IMG/VR virus record: IMGVR_UViG_3300036945_000258 | Location: 1 to 28,711 of that record | Source: a virus | Reading direction: 5' to 3' (one strand) | DNA length: 28,711 nt | Shown here: in pieces, positions 3,204 to 21,617 of the stretch | Numbering within the stretch: the stretch's first letter is position 1 | How the letters are laid out: every line of letters begins with the position of its first letter | Made by a program: the position numbers and the translations under genes | The notes under the pieces: model-generated | Seen by the model: the letters and a program-made list of their open reading frames with translations, nothing else | What the model was told of the DNA's origin: nothing | The model's database searches: none

Positions 3204-3920
3204 TTAATAGTTAGAGGCGTAGATGTTGAACCGCTGCCGGGTCGCCACGATGGCGTAGGGCATCGACATCACATCGTCAGGATTGTTGATGCGCTTCAGG
3301 TTGCGCTTGCTGGTCATAGCAATGCGCTGCACTTGAGGGCTGGGCTCGATGCCAAACTCAGGCGCGATTTCCATCGCTAGGTTGTAAGTAAAAGCGCGTA
3401 GATAGCCTGGCGGGAAGAACAGATCGGTCGCCAGCGTGGCGGGGTTGGACAGTTCTTGCACTGAGATGAAGTGCCACTCCAGGTCCCGCGTCGGGCGTGG
3501 GTAAATCAGCATCGTGATGTCCGGGAACGTGTTGTTCACAAAGATCACTTGCGGGTACGTCGAGGTGACGGTCTTGACCGCGATGCCGTCGTACTGCTGC
3601 TGATTGATGAACTTGATGCCGAACGACACGTTCGTGCCGGGGTCGCGGTAGTAGGTGGCGTCGTCCAGCAGCACTGGCCGCAGCCCCACAAACTGACCCG
3701 ATGGGCCAAGGGTGCGGCTGATCTCGCCCGCAGGCCAAGTAAAGACTTGATCTTGGGTGCTGAAGACGGACAAGCGTTCCGTGTTCCAGCTATCAATCAT
3801 CTGGTTGAGCGCCATCAGGCTGTCTTGCATGACAGCCGCCGACGACGTTTCCCCTTCGGCCAGTACACCAAGCAGCCGCAGCGCTCGATTGATTTGATCG
3901 CCAGCGGTGTATACGGCCAT
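3204..3920 (-). CDS. P22 gp4-like head completion / tail accessory protein
   Basis: The 238-residue product resembles the P22 gp4 tail accessory factor family, which docks under the portal and begins tail assembly. Diagnostic stretches are the N-terminal INRALRLLGVLAEGE and ALNQMIDSWN helices, the YPRPTRDLEWHF strand and the C-terminal FPPGYLRAFTYNLA helix followed by NLKRIN. AAGGAG lies about eight bases before the ATG. It sits just upstream of the gp10-like gene in transcription order, matching the P22 gp4-gp10 order, although an HNH gene now lies between them. P22 gp4 also has peptidoglycan hydrolase activity; I cannot identify such an active site here, so only the structural role is supported. 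Confidence 0.85.
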   Translation of the reverse strand: MAVYTAGDQINRALRLLGVLAEGETSSAAVMQDSLMALNQMIDSWNTERLSVFSTQDQVFTWPAGEISRTLGPSGQFVGLRPVLLDDATYYRDPGTNVSFGIKFINQQQYDGIAVKTVTSTYPQVIFVNNTFPDITMLIYPRPTRDLEWHFISVQELSNPATLATDLFFPPGYLRAFTYNLAMEIAPEFGIEPSPQVQRIAMTSKRNLKRINNPDDVMSMPYAIVATRQRFNIYASNY

Positions 3921-13205: not shown

Positions 13206-13335
13206 TTTGAAGCTCCTTTAGCTTGTCTTCGTCAAGATAGCCGACCAATTCGACTTCTTCAACTTTACCTGTTGCTTTGCGAGTGATTTGCACCGTAAAC
13301 CGCAACTCGCCCGTTTGTCCGCTTAAGTTACTCAT
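13162..13335 (-). CDS. 57-residue hypothetical protein
   Basis: A short frame encodes MSNLSGQTGELRFTVQITRK, then ATGKVEEVELVGYLDEDKLK and a short end. The ATG overlaps the stop of the 13694 gene as ATGA, which argues for coupled translation. The fold looks like three beta-strands and a helix, with a pattern (GELRFTVQITRKATGKVE) seen in other small phage proteins between portal and tail genes. Its last 15 codons overlap the TTG-started gene downstream and contain that gene's Shine-Dalgarno sequence. The function is unknown. Confidence 0.68.
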   Translation of the reverse strand: MSNLSGQTGELRFTVQITRKATGKVEEVELVGYLDEDKLKELQIGCDSLDGSTERCD

Positions 13336-13694
13336 GCCAGAAACTTCAACTTGTACAGCGTTGACAGATACTGCCCGATAATCTCATCGATGATGTTTTG
13401 AATCGGGGTGTCAGTCTTGTCGCAGACCTCGTACCGGCACTTTTCCAGCTCATCCATCGAGGATTGCAAAAACTCGGTGATGTTGTTGGTCTTGGTGGCG
13501 CTCATCAGAGTGATGGGGCCAATTAGACCATGCCTGCCCTGATACGCCTCAGCAAACTTGTCCGCCAAGTCCACTATGTTGTCGTAGAACTCGTTAAGCG
13601 CCGAGTGCTTAGAGAAACTGCGGGTGTTCAAGTGTACTGAATGCGCTACGTCCCTAGCGAGAAACAGCGTCCCTACAAAATCTGCGGGCTTCAT
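13332..13694 (-). CDS. DUF5856-like helical protein
   Basis: The product is 120 residues and nearly all helical: MKPADFVGTLFLARDVAHSV, HLNTRSFSKHSALNEFYDNI, VDLADKFAEAYQG, and a C-terminal helix IIDEIIGQYLSTLYKLKFLA. The spacing of H, N, E and D residues (H22, H30, E35, D49, E50-type positions) resembles the DUF5856 phage family, whose members recall the four-helix ferritin/Dps fold. It follows the portal gene with an ATGA overlap. A DNA-protecting or structural role has been suggested by fold resemblance only; none is shown here. Confidence 0.7.
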   Translation of the reverse strand: MKPADFVGTLFLARDVAHSVHLNTRSFSKHSALNEFYDNIVDLADKFAEAYQGRHGLIGPITLMSATKTNNITEFLQSSMDELEKCRYEVCDKTDTPIQNIIDEIIGQYLSTLYKLKFLA

Positions 13695-15978: not shown

Positions 15979-17508
15979 CTATGATCCCATCCAAGATGTA
16001 CTGCCCGTAAAGTCCGAATAGACCTTGCGGGTAGGGGTTCGTGAATTGTACTCGCCTCGGCTGGCAACAGGAAACGCAAACGTCACCGCCAGCGCGTCGG
16101 CTGCGTCTGGAGAGGCCAGTCCACGGGATTTCATATCCTTCTTGCTCTCTAGATAGATCGTGCCCGTGCTGTCAGGTTTGGTCTTGGGGCCTGTCAGGTC
16201 GTTCTTAAGCTGCCGGTCCTCTTGGACTGCGGCAGTTTTAAGCCACTCCCGCATTGCGCCCCAGATTTCCGCTCGCTTATTACCCCACATAATCGGGTTC
16301 TTCGCTTTCCAGCCAAAGTTCACCCCACGCACTTTATACCTCTGCTCCGTCAGCCGGTCAAGGATGCCGTACCCGAGCCCGCCTTCGTCCAGCACCACCA
16401 GCGCCGGCTTGAAGTCCTCGATGGCCTCGATGACGTGCCCGACCACCGTCATGGTGTCGTCGCCCTTGTACCGCCTGATCTCCAACAGGTCGCGCCCTTG
16501 CCGCGCTACAATGACGGTCGAATCCGACCCGCTACGCGCTGGGTCCACGCCGATCACGATGGGCGCCTGCGGGTCTTTGTACTTAGGCCGCTTGAACGCC
16601 TCGTCTACGATACGCGGAGGAATAAACTGCTCATCTCCAGTAGACGGAAACTCCCCGTACACCTCAATCCGCGCCTGCGGCGAGTCCTCGCCATACTCGT
16701 CAATAATCTGCTGATATACCGCCTTGTCCGTGTCCTCGACCGTGCGGGCGTCAATCTGCCGGATGTTCCAGAACGCTCGCTTGGCGTTGAAGCACTCATA
16801 GAAGTACCCCTGGTTACGTCGCGGGTTGCTGAACGCGCACCAGAACCTGTGCGGCGTGTTCTCCGTAAAGAAGCCCTGCGCAACGTCCCAGATCTTGTCT
16901 GGAATACCCGACGCCTCGTCGAAGATCAGCATCACGCCGTCTGAGTTGTGCAGACCCGCGTAGGCGTCCGGGTTCTCCTCCGACCACAGCCTGCCCTCCG
17001 CGCCCCAGTACCGCGTGCCCTTGCGCAGGTCGCGCTCGACGATCTCCGCTAGCCACTTGGCCGGCGTGATCCGTGTCGCCGAGATTTCCCACCAGTGGCT
17101 GTTCATCAGCATCGCCAGCCACTTGGTTATCTCCGCCCATGTGATGGAGCGTAGCTGCGCCTCTGAGTTGGCCGACACGATGACCGACGCGCCGATGCGG
17201 GTCGTCAGCATCCACAGCACCAGCCAAGACACTAAGGCTGATTTACCGATACCGCGCCCTGACGCCGTGGCCATGCGCAACACCTTGTACATGTCCACAT
17301 CGCCGTTGTCCGCGATGTGGTTCTTGATGTCGCGCAGCACCTGACGCTGCCAGGTGCGGGGGCCTTTGTACCGTTCTAGCGGTGTGCCCGGCTCCCCCCA
17401 AGGGAACGCGAACAAGACGAACTTCTCAGGGTCGTTGACTATCTGCGGCGACCAGAGTCGGGTCATTAGCCCCTGCTCTTGTTCCGCCGAGAATTTGGGC
17501 TCTTGCAT
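15979..17508 (-). CDS. terL: Terminase large subunit
   Basis: The 509-residue product is the packaging motor ATPase and nuclease. The ATPase half shows an adenine-binding-like start (RTWQRQVLRD), a Walker A of the form GRGIGKS at residues 84-90, and a Walker B VMLIFDE with D197 and E198. The nuclease half (RNase H fold) shows GVDPARSGSD with D322, VVLDEGGLG with D374 and E375, and SPDAADAL with D468 and D471, the expected acidic metal-binding residues. GAGGTG lies five bases before the ATG. It overlaps the small terminase gene by 80 bases. The strategy (headful or cohesive ends) cannot be told from this sequence alone. Confidence 0.95.
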   Translation of the reverse strand: MQEPKFSAEQEQGLMTRLWSPQIVNDPEKFVLFAFPWGEPGTPLERYKGPRTWQRQVLRDIKNHIADNGDVDMYKVLRMATASGRGIGKSALVSWLVLWMLTTRIGASVIVSANSEAQLRSITWAEITKWLAMLMNSHWWEISATRITPAKWLAEIVERDLRKGTRYWGAEGRLWSEENPDAYAGLHNSDGVMLIFDEASGIPDKIWDVAQGFFTENTPHRFWCAFSNPRRNQGYFYECFNAKRAFWNIRQIDARTVEDTDKAVYQQIIDEYGEDSPQARIEVYGEFPSTGDEQFIPPRIVDEAFKRPKYKDPQAPIVIGVDPARSGSDSTVIVARQGRDLLEIRRYKGDDTMTVVGHVIEAIEDFKPALVVLDEGGLGYGILDRLTEQRYKVRGVNFGWKAKNPIMWGNKRAEIWGAMREWLKTAAVQEDRQLKNDLTGPKTKPDSTGTIYLESKKDMKSRGLASPDAADALAVTFAFPVASRGEYNSRTPTRKVYSDFTGSTSWMGS

Positions 17509-17905
17509 TCGGCACCTCTTCGACCATCTCTACCACGCGCCGCTGCGCGGCCTCCAGCGCAGCCGTGATACTGATCTGCTGCGCTACGTCGATTTGCACC
17601 TGTTGCTTAGCAACCCAGCCGTAAGCGTGCTTCAGTATCTCCAGCGCCGCCTTGGAGTCGCCCGCCTCGGCTGCTTCGTGCAGCTTGTTAGACATACTGA
17701 GTTCGCCGTCGGCGCGGCCTTTTAGTTCAGCCAACTCCGCGATGGGGTCCAACTCACGCAAGCGCCGGTACTCGGTGGGCAGCAGCCCTGCGGCTAGCGC
17801 CAGTGTGTCGCCCTTTAGGCCGCGCTTCGCTGCGTCGTATACGCGGTTTAGTACGGCCTCGGTAGCACGCACTTCCCTGACAGATAGGGGCAGACTTTTG
17901 AACAT
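17426..17905 (-). CDS. terS: Terminase small subunit
   Basis: The 159-residue product would recognise phage DNA and load the large terminase. The N-terminal half is helical with a helix-turn-helix-like segment (VYDAAKRGLKGDTLALAAGL, then LPTEYRRLRELD); the centre is a helix pair (ADGELSMSNKLHEAAEAGDS, KAALEILKHAYGWV) typical of small terminases in which the oligomer core follows the DNA-binding domain; a C-terminal amphipathic helix (ALEAAQRRVVEMVEEV) precedes a tail that overlaps terL. I chose the ATG at 17905; a TTG at 17923 is also in frame, but the promoter -10 lies between them, so a transcript from it could not include the TTG. There is no clear Shine-Dalgarno sequence. Confidence 0.82.
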   Translation of the reverse strand: MFKSLPLSVREVRATEAVLNRVYDAAKRGLKGDTLALAAGLLPTEYRRLRELDPIAELAELKGRADGELSMSNKLHEAAEAGDSKAALEILKHAYGWVAKQQVQIDVAQQISITAALEAAQRRVVEMVEEVPNARAQILGGTRAGANDPTLVAADSQRP

Positions 17906-17913
17906 GCTTTGAG

Positions 17914-17945
17914 TGTATAGCAAAAAATATTAAAAAAATTACCAA
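17914..17945 (-). promoter_or_regulatory. Leftward promoter for the packaging/virion operon
   Basis: Reading leftward there is an extended -10 (TGC then TATACA, 17914-17922) behind a long A/T tract (17921-17940). A weak -35 candidate TTGGTA lies at 17940-17945 with a 20-base spacer, so recognition may depend on the extended -10 and the A/T tract. The predicted start is near 17907, only a few bases before the terS ATG, giving a nearly leaderless mRNA. Confidence 0.55.
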
Positions 17946-18040
17946 AATTCTTGTGGCCCCTACGTAGCCGTTGGCCCTGTCGCGTCGGCCCTACCCGGGG
18001 GGTAGTGTGCGCTCACCTACATGCACTAGGCAGGCAGGCG

Positions 18041-18330
18041 TGGGTGGTTGTCGCCGTGTCCACGCACACCGCACCCAGCATGTGGGCGGTTGTCGCCACG
18101 TCCACACACATCGCATCGGCTATCTGATGTGTGGGCGGTTGTCGCCGTGTCCACACACAGTTGATGTGCTGTCTGCGGGGTGTTTGACGCCCCTCCACGC
18201 GGTAGCCAAAATGTGGGCGGTTGTAGCGCCACCCACCAGCATCGCTGGCCGTACGTGCTACTGTGTATATATACAGTTATTTTCTTTTTCTCAAGGGTCT
18301 AATAAACAACCAACGACAACCGCCCACCCA
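18041..18330. repeat. Iteron-like repeat array
   Basis: The core TGGGYGGTTGTCG occurs directly at 18041-18053, 18083-18095 and 18132-18144, with one mismatch at 18214-18226, and inverted at 18314-18326. The first three copies extend to about 28 similar bases ending in CCACRCACA. Inside each of these GGYG and CGCC can pair around a five-base loop (with one G-T pair in the first copy), and TGTG-type and CACA-type ends can extend the stem; the third copy has the longest outer arms (18128-18133 with 18152-18157). Unit spacing is 42, 49 and 82 bases. Iterated sites of this kind bind replication initiators, terminases or repressors in other systems; the binder here is unknown. Confidence 0.82.
18264..18275. 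promoter_or_regulatory. 12-bp A/T palindrome TGTATATATACA
   Basis: A perfect palindrome sits between the fourth direct and the inverted repeat copy, in the most A/T-rich part of the region and followed by a pyrimidine run (18278-18291). It could be a melting site of an origin or an operator half-site pair. Confidence 0.5.
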
Positions 18331-18379
18331 TAGGAGGGCGACCGCGCCACATCGCGCACACAATCCGCACACAAACCAC

Positions 18380-18408
18380 TTGACAGCTGTACGGCATTGC
18401 CTTACAGT
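18380..18408 (+). promoter_or_regulatory. Rightward sigma70-type promoter
   Basis: A consensus -35 TTGACA (18380-18385), a 17-base spacer and a -10 TACAGT (18403-18408) predict a start near 18415. The transcript would carry AGGAG (18424-18428) ahead of the ATG at 18435. It lies 54 bases after the inverted repeat copy, so a protein bound to the array could affect it. Confidence 0.75.
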
Positions 18409-18434
18409 GCTCTCACACCAACTAGGAGCCCGAC

Positions 18435-18608
18435 ATGTTCGAACCCCGCATCATTAGCCAGTACGTCTACCGCGTCACCGAATGCCGGTCCAACCCTATC
18501 GACGCGCTCGCCGACTCGGCGCTGTACTGGGGCGTCAACATCTTTGCCCTTGCTCAGTTCTTGCGCGCTATTGACGCCCCCGGCGCTACGCGCCTCACCC
18601 TCATCTAA
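18435..18608 (+). CDS. 57-residue hypothetical protein, first gene of micro-operon
   Basis: The product reads MFEPRIISQYVYRVTECRSN and on to end in ATRLTLI. The ATG follows AGGAG by six bases and lies just downstream of a strong promoter. The central part has helical character with hydrophobic and aromatic residues (ALADSALYWGVNIFALAQFL), possibly amphipathic and not clearly membrane-spanning. No family is recognised. The same leader ACTAGGAGCCCG stands before this gene and the next one, which indicates duplicated or standardised leaders. Confidence 0.65.
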   Translation: MFEPRIISQYVYRVTECRSNPIDALADSALYWGVNIFALAQFLRAIDAPGATRLTLI

Positions 18609-18623
18609 CTAGGAGCCCGCATC

Positions 18624-18716
18624 ATGACCGACCACTTGAAAGATCTTCTCACCGCAGTGACGCTCGCCGCAGCGCTCTTCGTCTTGCTCAGCTACGGCAT
18701 GGGGGTGTTACTGTGA
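18624..18716 (+). CDS. 30-residue single-span membrane peptide
   Basis: The frame encodes MTDHLKDLLTAVTLAAALFV, then LLSYGMGVLL. It is a short charged start followed by one hydrophobic span of about 22 residues. The ATG is preceded by AGGAGCCCGCATC, the leader motif also seen at 18423. The stop TGA overlaps the GTG start of the next gene (GTGA). This arrangement supports translation. Tiny phage membrane peptides include lysis regulators, superinfection-exclusion proteins and toxins; none can be chosen here. Confidence 0.65.
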   Translation: MTDHLKDLLTAVTLAAALFVLLSYGMGVLL

Positions 18717-18919
18717 ACTGCCACTACACCTACCAGAACCGCGCGGGCGACGTCTACCATGTTCTTACCGAGAACGTCGCGTCATGGGCGGACGAGCCCT
18801 ACCCGCCCGGCGGGTTCCTGCGCGTCATGCGCGACGCGGGCGGGCGGATCCTCGCAGGCCCGCACGTTGATGAACTGATTAGCTGGGCCTGCCACTACAC
18901 CACCACCAAGGGAGACTGA
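18713..18919 (+). CDS. 68-residue hypothetical protein
   Basis: The product starts with a GTG (MNCHYTYQNRAGDVYHVLTE) that overlaps the stop of the membrane peptide. The sequence continues with ASWADEPYPPGGFLRVMRDA, GGRILAGPHVDELISWACHY and TTTKGD. A run of short beta-strands and a proline-glycine turn suggest a small compact domain; two Cys-His pairs (C3/H4 and C61/H62) could bind metal, although the spacing is not that of a known finger. No family is recognised. Confidence 0.62.
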   Translation: MNCHYTYQNRAGDVYHVLTENVASWADEPYPPGGFLRVMRDAGGRILAGPHVDELISWACHYTTTKGD

Positions 18920-18922
18920 ACC

Positions 18923-19213
18923 ATGCCCACCATTACCCGCCAGCCTGACGGCACGCTGTCCACCTACACCGTCACGAACCCAGCAACATGGGCGGCGCTG
19001 CAAAGCCTCAAGCCCATGAAAAAGCCGCGTGCCAAAGCCGACAAGCGCCAGTTCCCACAGTGGCGCGCCGGCATGAGCACGGCCGACTACGTTCGGGGCT
19101 ACTGGCGGCTTAACTTCGTCGATGGTACGGGGCCGTCCGCGTTCTTTCAACCGCTCCCCACCACGCCCGCAGCATGGGCGCCGGATACGGTCGAGATCGA
19201 GACCATAGAATGA
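18923..19213 (+). CDS. 96-residue hypothetical protein
   Basis: The product reads MPTITRQPDGTLSTYTVTNP, then ATWAALQSLKPMKKPRAKAD, and has a tryptophan-rich second half (MSTADYVRGYWRLNFVDG, FFQPLPTTPAAWAPDTVEIE). The middle is strongly basic, so nucleic-acid binding is possible. GGGAG lies before the ATG. The stop overlaps the ATG of the next gene (ATGA). No family is recognised. Confidence 0.65.
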   Translation: MPTITRQPDGTLSTYTVTNPATWAALQSLKPMKKPRAKADKRQFPQWRAGMSTADYVRGYWRLNFVDGTGPSAFFQPLPTTPAAWAPDTVEIETIE

Positions 19214-19272
19214 TCTGGGCCGCACTAGCCGCTCTCGCGGCCCTTGTCCTAATCACCCTCCTCGACCTATAA
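19210..19272 (+). CDS. 20-residue hydrophobic peptide
   Basis: An ATG overlapping the upstream stop as ATGA opens a frame of 20 codons (MIWAALAALAALVLITLLDL). It is almost entirely hydrophobic and long enough for one membrane span. The frame ends 18 bases before the terminator stem, so it is the last cistron. Coupling by ATGA is the main support; a peptide this short could also arise by chance. Confidence 0.5.
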   Translation: MIWAALAALAALVLITLLDL

Positions 19273-19290
19273 TCGAGCCCTCCCTTGATC

Positions 19291-19318
19291 GCCCCCATTC
19301 GTGGGGGCTTTTTTTTTT
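19291..19318 (+). terminator. Strong intrinsic terminator of the micro-gene operon
   Basis: GCCCCCA pairs with TGGGGGC (19291-19297 with 19302-19308) around a TTCG loop, followed by ten Ts (19309-19318). The T-run reaches the stop codon of the convergent primase-helicase gene. Confidence 0.92.
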
Positions 19319-21617
19319 ACCCTCGCACGCGGGCGATAATCTCAGCGGCAGAGGGTGCGGGTAGGTCAACGACCCGGCGAGCGTCAGACTTAGACCCGAC
19401 GAAATCAGGCGCGGCGTAGCAGTGCCTTTTCGTTCTGGCCTCCCGGGCGTGACACAGGCCGAGGTCATGCCAGCCGGCCTCGCGGAAGGCGTGTAGCAGG
19501 GCCTGAACGTGCAGCCGCACGGCGGCGGGGGCGCTGGGTTGCAGTTCCTCGACCACCGACTGCCACGGAGCACCAACCACGCCACGCGCAAACGGACCGG
19601 CACGGTCGTTCAACTGGGTCATCAGCCACGATTCGGCCGGCGACATACCCGCGCCCAGCATGATCAGCTTAGCCTCGGTCATCAGCGGGGGCGCACCGGG
19701 GTTCCACTGGGTCACATCACGGGCGTGCAGCCAGGCGGCCACCGCCGCCAGGCCACCGGCCCCGTACCAATCCCACAATGCTTTGGCCTCAGCGGGCGGC
19801 ATGATGGAGGCCTCGCTCCAGAGGACGAGCCAGCGACGGTCGTCGGAGGGCAAGGTGATCGCGGCGCGCTCGTTCGAGAACGCCAAAACGAGGAGCTTAT
19901 TGGCGGCATCGTAGGGGTGCAGGCCCTTGCGCTGGATCGAGATCAGATCAGGAGGCGCGGCCAGCAAGGGCTTGAGTCGGTTCTCAAGGGCCCGGCGGTC
20001 GCTGGCCTCAGTCTGGCGAAGCTCGTTCAAGACCAGCACCTCGCTCTCAAAGGCGTAACCCCATTGGGAATGGATCTCTTCGTTGCGGACGGTCGCCACG
20101 TTCGTGCGACCTTCGCCACCGATGGCCCACAGGAACGGGGTCCAAAGACTATCCTTACCCGCGCCAGGCTTGCCAGCGTGCAGGACACCGTGATTAATCT
20201 TGACACCGGGGTGCTGCACCTTCCAAGCCATGATGTTAAATACATGCTCACGCTCGGCATGGTCGGGGATCATCTTCTCGGCGTGGGCCAGCCACAGGGA
20301 CACGTCGCCGCCAGTAGGGCGGGGGCGACCGTCCTGCCACTTGTTGCCGTACACGCCACCGGAGCGGGCGACGAGGACCGACTCGCCGGGGGCGTAGGCG
20401 ATACCGTCCAACACCCGTCCCCCTTTATCTTGCCGGTGCTCGTCGTAGCAGACCGACGCTTCAATCTTGGGGTTCTTGCCGTGGATGGACCGGCACGACA
20501 CATGCCGGAACAAGGCGTTAAAGTTGCTCCGCGTGAACTGGCGGCGCTCGCGCATGTCAAAAAACGCATCGTCCGACACGACGTAGGCGAAACGAGCCCA
20601 CCAATCGGCCTTCTCAGTACGGGCGGCCTCGGCACGGTCAACCTCCGCGACCACCAAAGCAACAGCGCCGGCCAGCGCAGGAGGAGGCGTCAGGCGGCCA
20701 ATCGTGGCGGCCATAGCTTGCTGGAGCAACTCGTCCCGCAGGCCAGGCGTGTGACGGGGGCCACCCTCAGAGGCGACCCACTCAAGGAACCAAGACGAGC
20801 CCAGATCGACGCAGTGCGAGTGCAGGCAGCAGTACGCCCGCCCGCTGGGCAGGTAACGGCCCTCGGGGTTGCCGTCAGTGTGCGAGGCGGCGTTGGGGCA
20901 CTGTACACCCATCCAGCCCTCGGGGTTAGGACGGGACAGCACCAGCCCGCGCTCCGACAACCACGCGGCGACATCATCAGCGCCATCGTCGGACAGGCGC
21001 ACGGGGCGGGGGCCAAGCGACTCGACCACCTCGGGGGTGACGCCGAGACTGTCACAGATCTGGGACAGAGTGTAATCACGGTCGGGGTGGAACTCGACCA
21101 GCCGAGCGGCGAAGCCGTCCCGGCCAGGCTTCAGGTTGACGCTACCCGGCAGGCGGAAGTTGCGGACGGGGTTTGTTGCGCCGGGGTCGGTGTAGCCCGC
21201 CGCCGCGATGGCCTTGATCGCGCCAGCGAACTCCAGCTTGGTCGGCTGTTCGCTGAACGCATAGCCCCACTGATAATTGTCCGGCGAGGTCTCCATGATC
21301 CAGGTCGGCGGCAAGGCGGGCGTCTTGCTCTTGGTGCCAACGTCGTCCAGCATCATCACCAGGACGTACTCGCAACACGCGGCGCTGGCGCTGGGGCGCC
21401 CCGCATCGAAACGGTCGATGATGAAGCTGGCAGTGTTGCCGAACCACGCCTCGCCGTCCTTGACGCCCCGCGTCGGCAGGAACGCCGGCCAAGTCGCCTT
21501 GACCGCGCCGTCGGCATGCAGTTGCAACTCACCATCGACGCGCTTAGGCGTCTGACGGACGATCAGTGCTGTCTCACCCTCGGGGGCCAGACCGGCCAGG
21601 TATTCGATGAAATTCAT
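19317..21617 (-). CDS. Primase-helicase (RepB/AEP-like primase plus SF3-type helicase)
   Basis: The 766-residue product joins a primase and a helicase. Residues 80-185 resemble the archaeo-eukaryotic primase fold of RepB-type proteins (VLVMMLDDVGTKSK, TWIMETSPDNYQWGYAF, then VRNFRLPGSVNLKPG). Residues 240-269 hold clustered Cys and His (CPNAASH and CCLHSHC), likely a zinc-binding linker. The helicase half (DUF5906-like) has Walker A GKPGAGKDS at 482-490, a Walker B-like VLVLNE ending at 532, and FSNE near 580. AGGAAT precedes the ATG. It would unwind and prime phage DNA, working with the PolA two genes upstream. It is last in the replication operon, and no separate initiator gene is seen here, so it may bind the origin itself. 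Confidence 0.85.
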   Translation of the reverse strand: MNFIEYLAGLAPEGETALIVRQTPKRVDGELQLHADGAVKATWPAFLPTRGVKDGEAWFGNTASFIIDRFDAGRPSASAACCEYVLVMMLDDVGTKSKTPALPPTWIMETSPDNYQWGYAFSEQPTKLEFAGAIKAIAAAGYTDPGATNPVRNFRLPGSVNLKPGRDGFAARLVEFHPDRDYTLSQICDSLGVTPEVVESLGPRPVRLSDDGADDVAAWLSERGLVLSRPNPEGWMGVQCPNAASHTDGNPEGRYLPSGRAYCCLHSHCVDLGSSWFLEWVASEGGPRHTPGLRDELLQQAMAATIGRLTPPPALAGAVALVVAEVDRAEAARTEKADWWARFAYVVSDDAFFDMRERRQFTRSNFNALFRHVSCRSIHGKNPKIEASVCYDEHRQDKGGRVLDGIAYAPGESVLVARSGGVYGNKWQDGRPRPTGGDVSLWLAHAEKMIPDHAEREHVFNIMAWKVQHPGVKINHGVLHAGKPGAGKDSLWTPFLWAIGGEGRTNVATVRNEEIHSQWGYAFESEVLVLNELRQTEASDRRALENRLKPLLAAPPDLISIQRKGLHPYDAANKLLVLAFSNERAAITLPSDDRRWLVLWSEASIMPPAEAKALWDWYGAGGLAAVAAWLHARDVTQWNPGAPPLMTEAKLIMLGAGMSPAESWLMTQLNDRAGPFARGVVGAPWQSVVEELQPSAPAAVRLHVQALLHAFREAGWHDLGLCHAREARTKRHCYAAPDFVGSKSDARRVVDLPAPSAAEIIARVRG

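Follow-up and report, generated by a model that had tools for sequence, protein, structure and literature searches.

The repeat array upstream of the putative small terminase gene (terS) of a probable freshwater phage is likely, at a probability of roughly 75%, to be an iteron-type replication origin that an NrS-1/SaPI-like primase-helicase recognises. The analysis started from a viral record of 28,711 nucleotides (IMG/VR IMGVR_UViG_3300036945_000258, hereafter the window) and was extended to its relatives. Three features of iteron origins come together here: short repeats clustered in a single non-coding stretch close to the candidate initiator gene, an A/T-rich region between the repeats that is weaker in the window itself, and an encoded SF3/AAA+ helicase that carries a primase and a predicted C-terminal winged helix. 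Two points are new, namely a LexA/SOS-type box within the putative origin core and pairs of initiator wing and iterons that appear to be exchangeable. The coordinates of all features are given in Table 1.

Table 1. Features of the terS-proximal array and its neighbouring genes in the window
Feature	Position	Strand	Remarks
Iteron unit 1	18040..18067	+	exact TGGGYGGTTGTCG core 18041-18053
Iteron unit 2	18082..18109	+	exact TGGGYGGTTGTCG core 18083-18095; inverted half-core GTCCACA 18100-18106
Iteron unit 3	18131..18158	+	exact TGGGYGGTTGTCG core 18132-18144; inverted half-core 18149-18155
Iteron 4	18214..18226	+	one mismatch
Iteron 5, inverted arm	18314..18326	-	exact TGGGYGGTTGTCG
Core between converging arms	18227..18313	n/a	87 bp
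LexA/SOS-box-like palindrome TACTGTGTATATATACAGTT	18259..18278	n/a	2 mismatches to TACTGTATATATATACAGTA
Possible leftward promoter TTGAGA-17-TATATA	18266..18294	-	by eye only; overlaps SOS box
Promoter-like TTGACA-17-TACAGT	18380..18408	+	promoter scanner; precedes rightward small ORFs
First rightward small ORF	18436..18609	+	no Pfam; unmatched among ORFs read in closest relative
30-aa membrane-like ORF	18624-18716	+	90% identical in G001
Primase-helicase, proposed initiator	19317..21617	-	766 aa; Pfam RepB_primase N-terminus, DUF5906 SF3 helicase
C-terminal winged-helix domain, proposed iteron-binding	19320..19670	-	residues 650-766; predicted fold
Beta-hairpin/wing	19392..19469	-	residues 717-742; amino-acid changes concentrate here between relatives with different repeats
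terL	15979..17508	-	Pfam Terminase_6N
Putative small terminase gene terS	17426..17905	-	159 aa; adjoins terL; same-place gene of OR003940 annotated 'terminase small subunit'; product without Pfam or PHROG match

Four direct copies of TGGGYGGTTGTCG, one of them mismatched, and one inverted copy had been described in an earlier note on this DNA, and exact and mismatch searches recover all five; at zero or one mismatch the whole window holds these copies only. At up to two mismatches it holds eight, whereas 100 shuffles average 2.08 and reach 6 at most. Three copies extend, as the note had it, to the 28-base unit GTGGGYGGTTGTCGCCRYGTCCACRCAC, which was read off the copies and can alternatively be described as a TGTGGGC core opposed by a TGTGGAC in inverted orientation, with the inverted cores at 18100 and 18149. 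The small hairpin attributed to this unit can be drawn, but its folding z-scores are weak (DNA, + strand: -0.39, -1.05 and -1.98 for the three units, with -0.55 for the fourth copy). The core between the arms has an A+T content of 56%, reaching 73% over 18259-18310 (52 bp), compared with 41% for the window. The surrounding gap is gene-free as proposed, the ORFs listed inside it being short, mutually overlapping and unsupported. The promoters said to face both ways are half supported: the promoter scanner places two sites rightward, the one in Table 1 and a weaker one at 18184-18212, and none leftward in the array region, where a site can be drawn by eye only. On the minus strand, iteron 4 belongs to a terminator-like stem (18236-18213) followed by ATTTT, a sequence kept in the relative G001; the possible leftward promoter lies just upstream of the stem, where a leftward transcript might end. 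An Rfam gathering search of 17800-18700 gave no match, no nucleotide relatives of 17400-19300 were found among phage records, and an open-access literature search found no paper describing the terS-proximal array.

A pattern scan of viral contigs returned 53 stretches, one of which (L118) carries three copies at the spacing seen in the window. It belongs to G001, a 37,213-bp record whose primase is 96% identical to that of the window. Conservation of the core in close relatives had been suggested as a check, and in G001, the closest relative found, all five copies, four direct and one inverted, are kept together with the palindrome, which is an exact TACTGTATATATATACAGTA; elsewhere in that record there are no array words and no box. 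The first rightward ORF differs between G001 and the window, though the array is the same.

The wider family was sampled by a TerL search (best 80 of 594 loci used) and a primase search (72 loci, 40 with a TerS match and 39 of these used). These comparisons cover 89 terS-upstream regions, or 63 non-redundant ones once 25 near-duplicates and one region that was too short are dropped; an EM motif finder was set aside as too permissive, and only its de-duplication was kept. The regions are related to each other, and counts across them are not independent. A 12-mer occurs in 6-10 copies at up to two mismatches, above all ten of the region's own shuffles (first-order Markov resamples, as for the LexA box below), in 37 of the 89 regions (27 of the 63). 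Two of the 37, L006 and L033, are plain 15-16 bp tandem repeats. The remaining regions, several relatives resembling L005 included, have a weaker array or none by the 12-mer test, and L005 itself contains scattered TTAGGTCAT-like units. A common plan emerges from the eleven regions that were read, in which 9-bp units (TGTGGGCAA, TGTGGGCTA, TTTGGGTCA, TGTAGGCAA and TGTTAGTCA), often in tandem pairs, are oriented towards an A/T-rich core. This converging order fits 108 of 122 site clusters from 20 regions with at least four clusters each; the divergent order fits 79, and random orientation gives a mean of 91.7 and a maximum of 105 in 5000 trials. Where the box described below is absent, in 11 regions with at least six sites, the innermost units lie 80-122 bp apart and enclose a 40-bp stretch of 82-90% A+T.

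Each genome has one main location for these repeats. The strongest repeat window is the terS-proximal array in 10 of 12 whole or near-whole genomes, including OR003940 (DSL-LC05) and MW202483; it lies elsewhere in G003 and G025, and one of the ten, G018, has its array placed by the primase, which it follows at the end of the contig. The word TGTGGGCAATGT, with one mismatch allowed, occurs in 8 of the 12 genomes, and 36 of its 41 distinct matches are in the array; the other five, mapped by hand, are in G015, G016, G019, G021 and G022. DSL-LC05 has its array at the same place, yet its primase does not match that of the window significantly, and the accessible portion of the paper on this phage (PMC10611076) contains no mention of 'repeat' or 'origin of replication'. 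L069, L053 and L059 carry three to four TGTTGCATCTACGCAACA-like units 600-880 bp before terS and no TGTGGGC arrays; in L069 and L053, the helicase match begins only at about residue 322-337, and these units are possibly the origin repeats of relatives of that type. By eye, L011 and L012 have HNH homing endonuclease-like ORFs directly upstream of terS, displacing the array, and the gene upstream of terS in MW202483 (27644-28090) is annotated 'homing endonuclease'. Base-composition skews were uninformative as origin marks. The GC-skew extreme speaks, if anything, against the origin reading, coming within 2 kb of the array in just one of 11 genomes, and third-position skew flips inconsistently. 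The keto-skew maximum is no more than 2.6 kb from the array in 10 of the 11, but it was not used because structural and replication genes meet there as well and third-position composition flips inconsistently.

The A/T palindrome of the earlier note is present in the core, and its match to a LexA operator, like the converging arms of the family, adds to what had been described. It conforms to the LexA type of beta- and gammaproteobacteria, with CTGT-N8-ACAG inside taCTGTatatatatACAGta. Scored against the E. coli consensus, the box reaches 18/20 in the window and 20/20 in G001; the 20-base consensus TACTGTATATATATACAGTA is taken from the accessible text of PMC7556043 and PMC5101192. A tenable minority reading is that the palindrome acts as a melting element or hairpin only, since its place is in the A/T core, CTGT-N8-ACAG is missing from 44 of the 63 non-redundant regions, and L166 has the same kind of repeats with no LexA-type box. 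Against this, the pattern is found in the other 19 regions, where 60 shuffled sets average 0.68 and reach 3 at most; five of the 63 carry the exact 20-base consensus; and the centre of the box varies (ATATATAT, ATATCCAT, ATGTTTAT, ATAGCTAT) between an invariant CTGT and an invariant ACAG. Matches to CTGT-N8-ACAG also occur outside the array, at 3820 in the window, 8293 in G013, 27921 in G016 and 33948 in G003.

A LexA operator at this position would allow host LexA to modulate transcription through the origin, because it overlaps the possible leftward promoter. The likely hosts are hinted at by a TerL scan of genome contigs, which gave five loci: four, at 66-73% identity, lie on metagenome-assembled (MAG) contigs binned with Rhodoferax, a betaproteobacterium, a gammaproteobacterium and an unplaced proteobacterium, which hints at hosts among the beta- and gammaproteobacteria, and the fifth is from Paenibacillus at 32% identity. 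Lysogeny was searched for through two families: 15 relatives and the 28.7-kb window record, some of them possibly fragments, gave no match to the PF00589 integrase or the PF00717 repressor; an S24 control was positive in 10 of 14 genomes. The window phage and its relatives therefore look virulent, and probably are, as far as two family searches on possibly fragmentary records indicate; the annotation of DSL-LC05 includes a 'repressor protein C' and a 'putative transcriptional regulator'. Because no integrase or repressor of these families was found, an SOS box within the putative origin core is the unusual part of the arrangement. In the temperate phage GIL01, host LexA acts on phage promoters, one of them for early replication genes, and needs the cofactor gp7, according to the available text of PMC6182141 and PMC4551915. 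The LexA role proposed here is read from sequence, and the window family differs from GIL01 in having a single box inside a putative origin, in phages with no PF00589 or PF00717 match.

The candidate initiator has a helicase core homologous to NrS-1-like primase-polymerases. A profile of 27 family sequences matches the NrS-1 primase structures (7e-12) and nothing else up to an E-value of 1. The full-length AlphaFold2 model (mean pLDDT 84, pTM 0.50) retrieves in Foldseek the structures of the NrS-1 C-terminal region (1e-17) and the SaPI5 primase-helicase (3.6e-8), and it also matches the ASFV PrimPol and mpox E5. Modelled alone, the C-terminal domain folds as a winged helix, with pLDDT values of 91-96 per block over residues 21-110. 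Its fold matches are to generic winged helices only (best Z 6.3, rmsd 3.7 over 91 residues), the P4 origin-binding domain is not among the matches listed, and Foldseek returns no match for the isolated domain at E<=0.001. DNA binding by this predicted winged helix is a proposal, put forward from the model and from the comparisons that follow.

Comparing relatives with like and unlike repeats points to the C-terminal winged-helix domain of the primase-helicase, and not to TerS, as the best reading of what recognises the array. The window and G001 share their repeats, and their primases are 100% identical over residues 650-766 and 92-97% elsewhere; L005 has different repeats, and its primase is 61% identical to the window's at the C-terminus and 80-87% in other parts. 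This comparison alone leaves TerS in play, because TerS is also closer in G001 (126/149 residues) than in L005 (125/159), with 107 and 96 identities, respectively, in the first 110 residues. A clade spanning L179-L196 separates the two proteins. Its repeats are GGCAATATTG-like in L183, L184, L186 and L196, TGTTAGTCA/TAGTCA in L185 and L188, and TGTAGGCAA in L187; L181, where no array was seen, stands outside these classes. The primase C-terminus is 98-100% identical within classes and 81-90% between them, and residues 200-320 are identical throughout except in L179. TerS behaves differently: it is identical (133/133 residues) in L186 and L187, which have different repeats, and this disfavours TerS as the reader. 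Its first 117 residues are common to six clade members spanning all three classes, and L196, with three changes in that stretch, has repeats like those of L183.

A finer view comes from L084 and L065, between which the step of paired units changes, by eye, from 9 to 10 bp. Over 115 C-terminal codons, all nine amino-acid changes fall within the 26 codons of the predicted wing, and the other 89 codons contain none of them and 27 of the 36 silent changes (Fisher 5e-5). Counting against the C-terminal reading, motif similarity across 20 non-redundant regions (of 39) follows the helicase most closely (Spearman 0.66), then the C-terminus (0.46), TerS (0.33) and the N-terminus (0.16); the partial correlations are 0.15 for the C-terminus given the helicase and 0.55 for the helicase given the C-terminus.

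The repeats could also have changed by linked exchange, in which recombination swaps the whole block from primase to terS and another gene of the block encodes the true binder. Such an exchange is possible because the repeat classes of the L179-L196 clade also differ in the ORFs that separate primase and array. We consider it unlikely: besides the primase tail, only a membrane-like ORF of 40-55 aa was found in all six genomes compared, and the amino-acid changes between L084 and L065 are confined to the wing while the silent changes are spread. In three of these six genomes (L183, L186 and L196), a 198-aa ORF that looks like a DnaN-like sliding clamp lies between primase and array. The tiny membrane-like ORF, of 30 aa in the window and G001 and of 40-55 aa in the L183-L196 clade, stays between primase and array as its neighbours vary.

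An operator array, through which a phage transcription regulator would control the divergent promoters of terS and the small ORFs, accounts for the divergent genes, the promoter-like site beside the array and the LexA-type box in its middle, and regulators are annotated in DSL-LC05. It is nonetheless quite improbable, as the one ORF common to the six primase-terS blocks is a small membrane-like peptide, most sites are confined to one region per genome, and primase, array and terS are all on one strand in NrS-1. The packaging half of the earlier proposal, a pac or cos site bound by the small terminase, is very improbable: the array adjoins terS, end overlaps of 114-127 bp in 6 of 12 contigs suggest circular maps compatible with headful packaging, and TerS is somewhat closer in G001 than in L005, but TerS and site do not change together in L186 and L187 (an indirect test) nor in the six relatives that share its first 117 residues, and the sole TerS altered in that stretch keeps the repeats of L183. 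Comparative evidence instead favours the other half of that proposal, an origin served by the primase-helicase.

The most independent support found comes from NrS-1, a phage of an epsilonproteobacterium, in which the array follows the primase and precedes terS, so that the gene order is common to both groups. In its genome (AB746912), the strongest repeat window lies between the primase end at 17051 and the terS start at 17459; all 11 genome copies of AGTGTAAC are in this gap, and the next best region has 4 repeats. The eight-base sequence TTTGGTTA is given as the NrS-1 recognition site and start template in the accessible text of PMC8718748, and the genome is said to hold two copies in that of PMC7102993; in the text available, these sites are described only as possible origins. 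One exact TTTGGTTA was found in AB746912, on the minus strand, compared with the two copies stated in the available part of PMC7102993. Its complement, TAACCAAA, lies at 17198 and overlaps one AGTGTAAC. NrS-1 resembles the window family in joining a primase-polymerase to an SF3 helicase from the same family, in the repeat array between primase and terS, and in annotated genes for a helicase, a RecB protein and an ssDNA-binding protein, which the window module has too. It differs in the repeat itself, in an array that directly follows the primase gene with primase, array and terS all on one strand, and in an annotated integrase and a CI-like gene. An annotated hypothetical gene, NRS1_29 (17055-17456), coincides with the NrS-1 repeat array and may not be a real gene.

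In the satellite phage P4, the alpha protein is a primase-helicase whose C-terminal origin-binding domain reads iterons; organism and repeats are other than those described here. SaPI Rep and Cch2 use their C-terminal domains to recognise iterons that lie downstream of their own genes, according to the accessible text of PMC7581432. SaPI Rep, SaPI5 and SCCmec Cch2 thus share with the proposed origin an initiator helicase, a C-terminal DNA-binding domain and iterons downstream of the initiator gene; they belong to staphylococcal islands and cassettes with other repeats, and the available part of PMC7581432 mentions no SOS box.

Taken as an origin, the array would be bound by several copies of the NrS-1-like primase-helicase through their C-terminal winged-helix domains, which would assemble on the two converging arms and melt the A/T-rich core between them. 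The helicase would then load at the melted core, unwind and prime, and host LexA might modulate transcription through the origin via the operator in the core. A wider proposal, possible rather than likely, is that widespread, apparently virulent freshwater podoviruses keep an SOS operator in the melting core of their origin, that transcription or opening of the origin is gated by LexA, through which the phage senses host DNA damage, and that the origin is a fast-switching module in which wing and iterons are exchanged together. The array indicates where a large group of uncultivated phages, and the NrS-1 family, may start replication. The matched wings and DNA repeats form a natural series from which a recognition code of the initiator could be read, and the box raises the question of why probably virulent phages retain a host SOS operator in the origin. 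Elsewhere in the window, the minus-strand gene at 13332-13694, which adjoins the portal gene, matches PHROG 858, 'starvation-inducible transcriptional regulator'.
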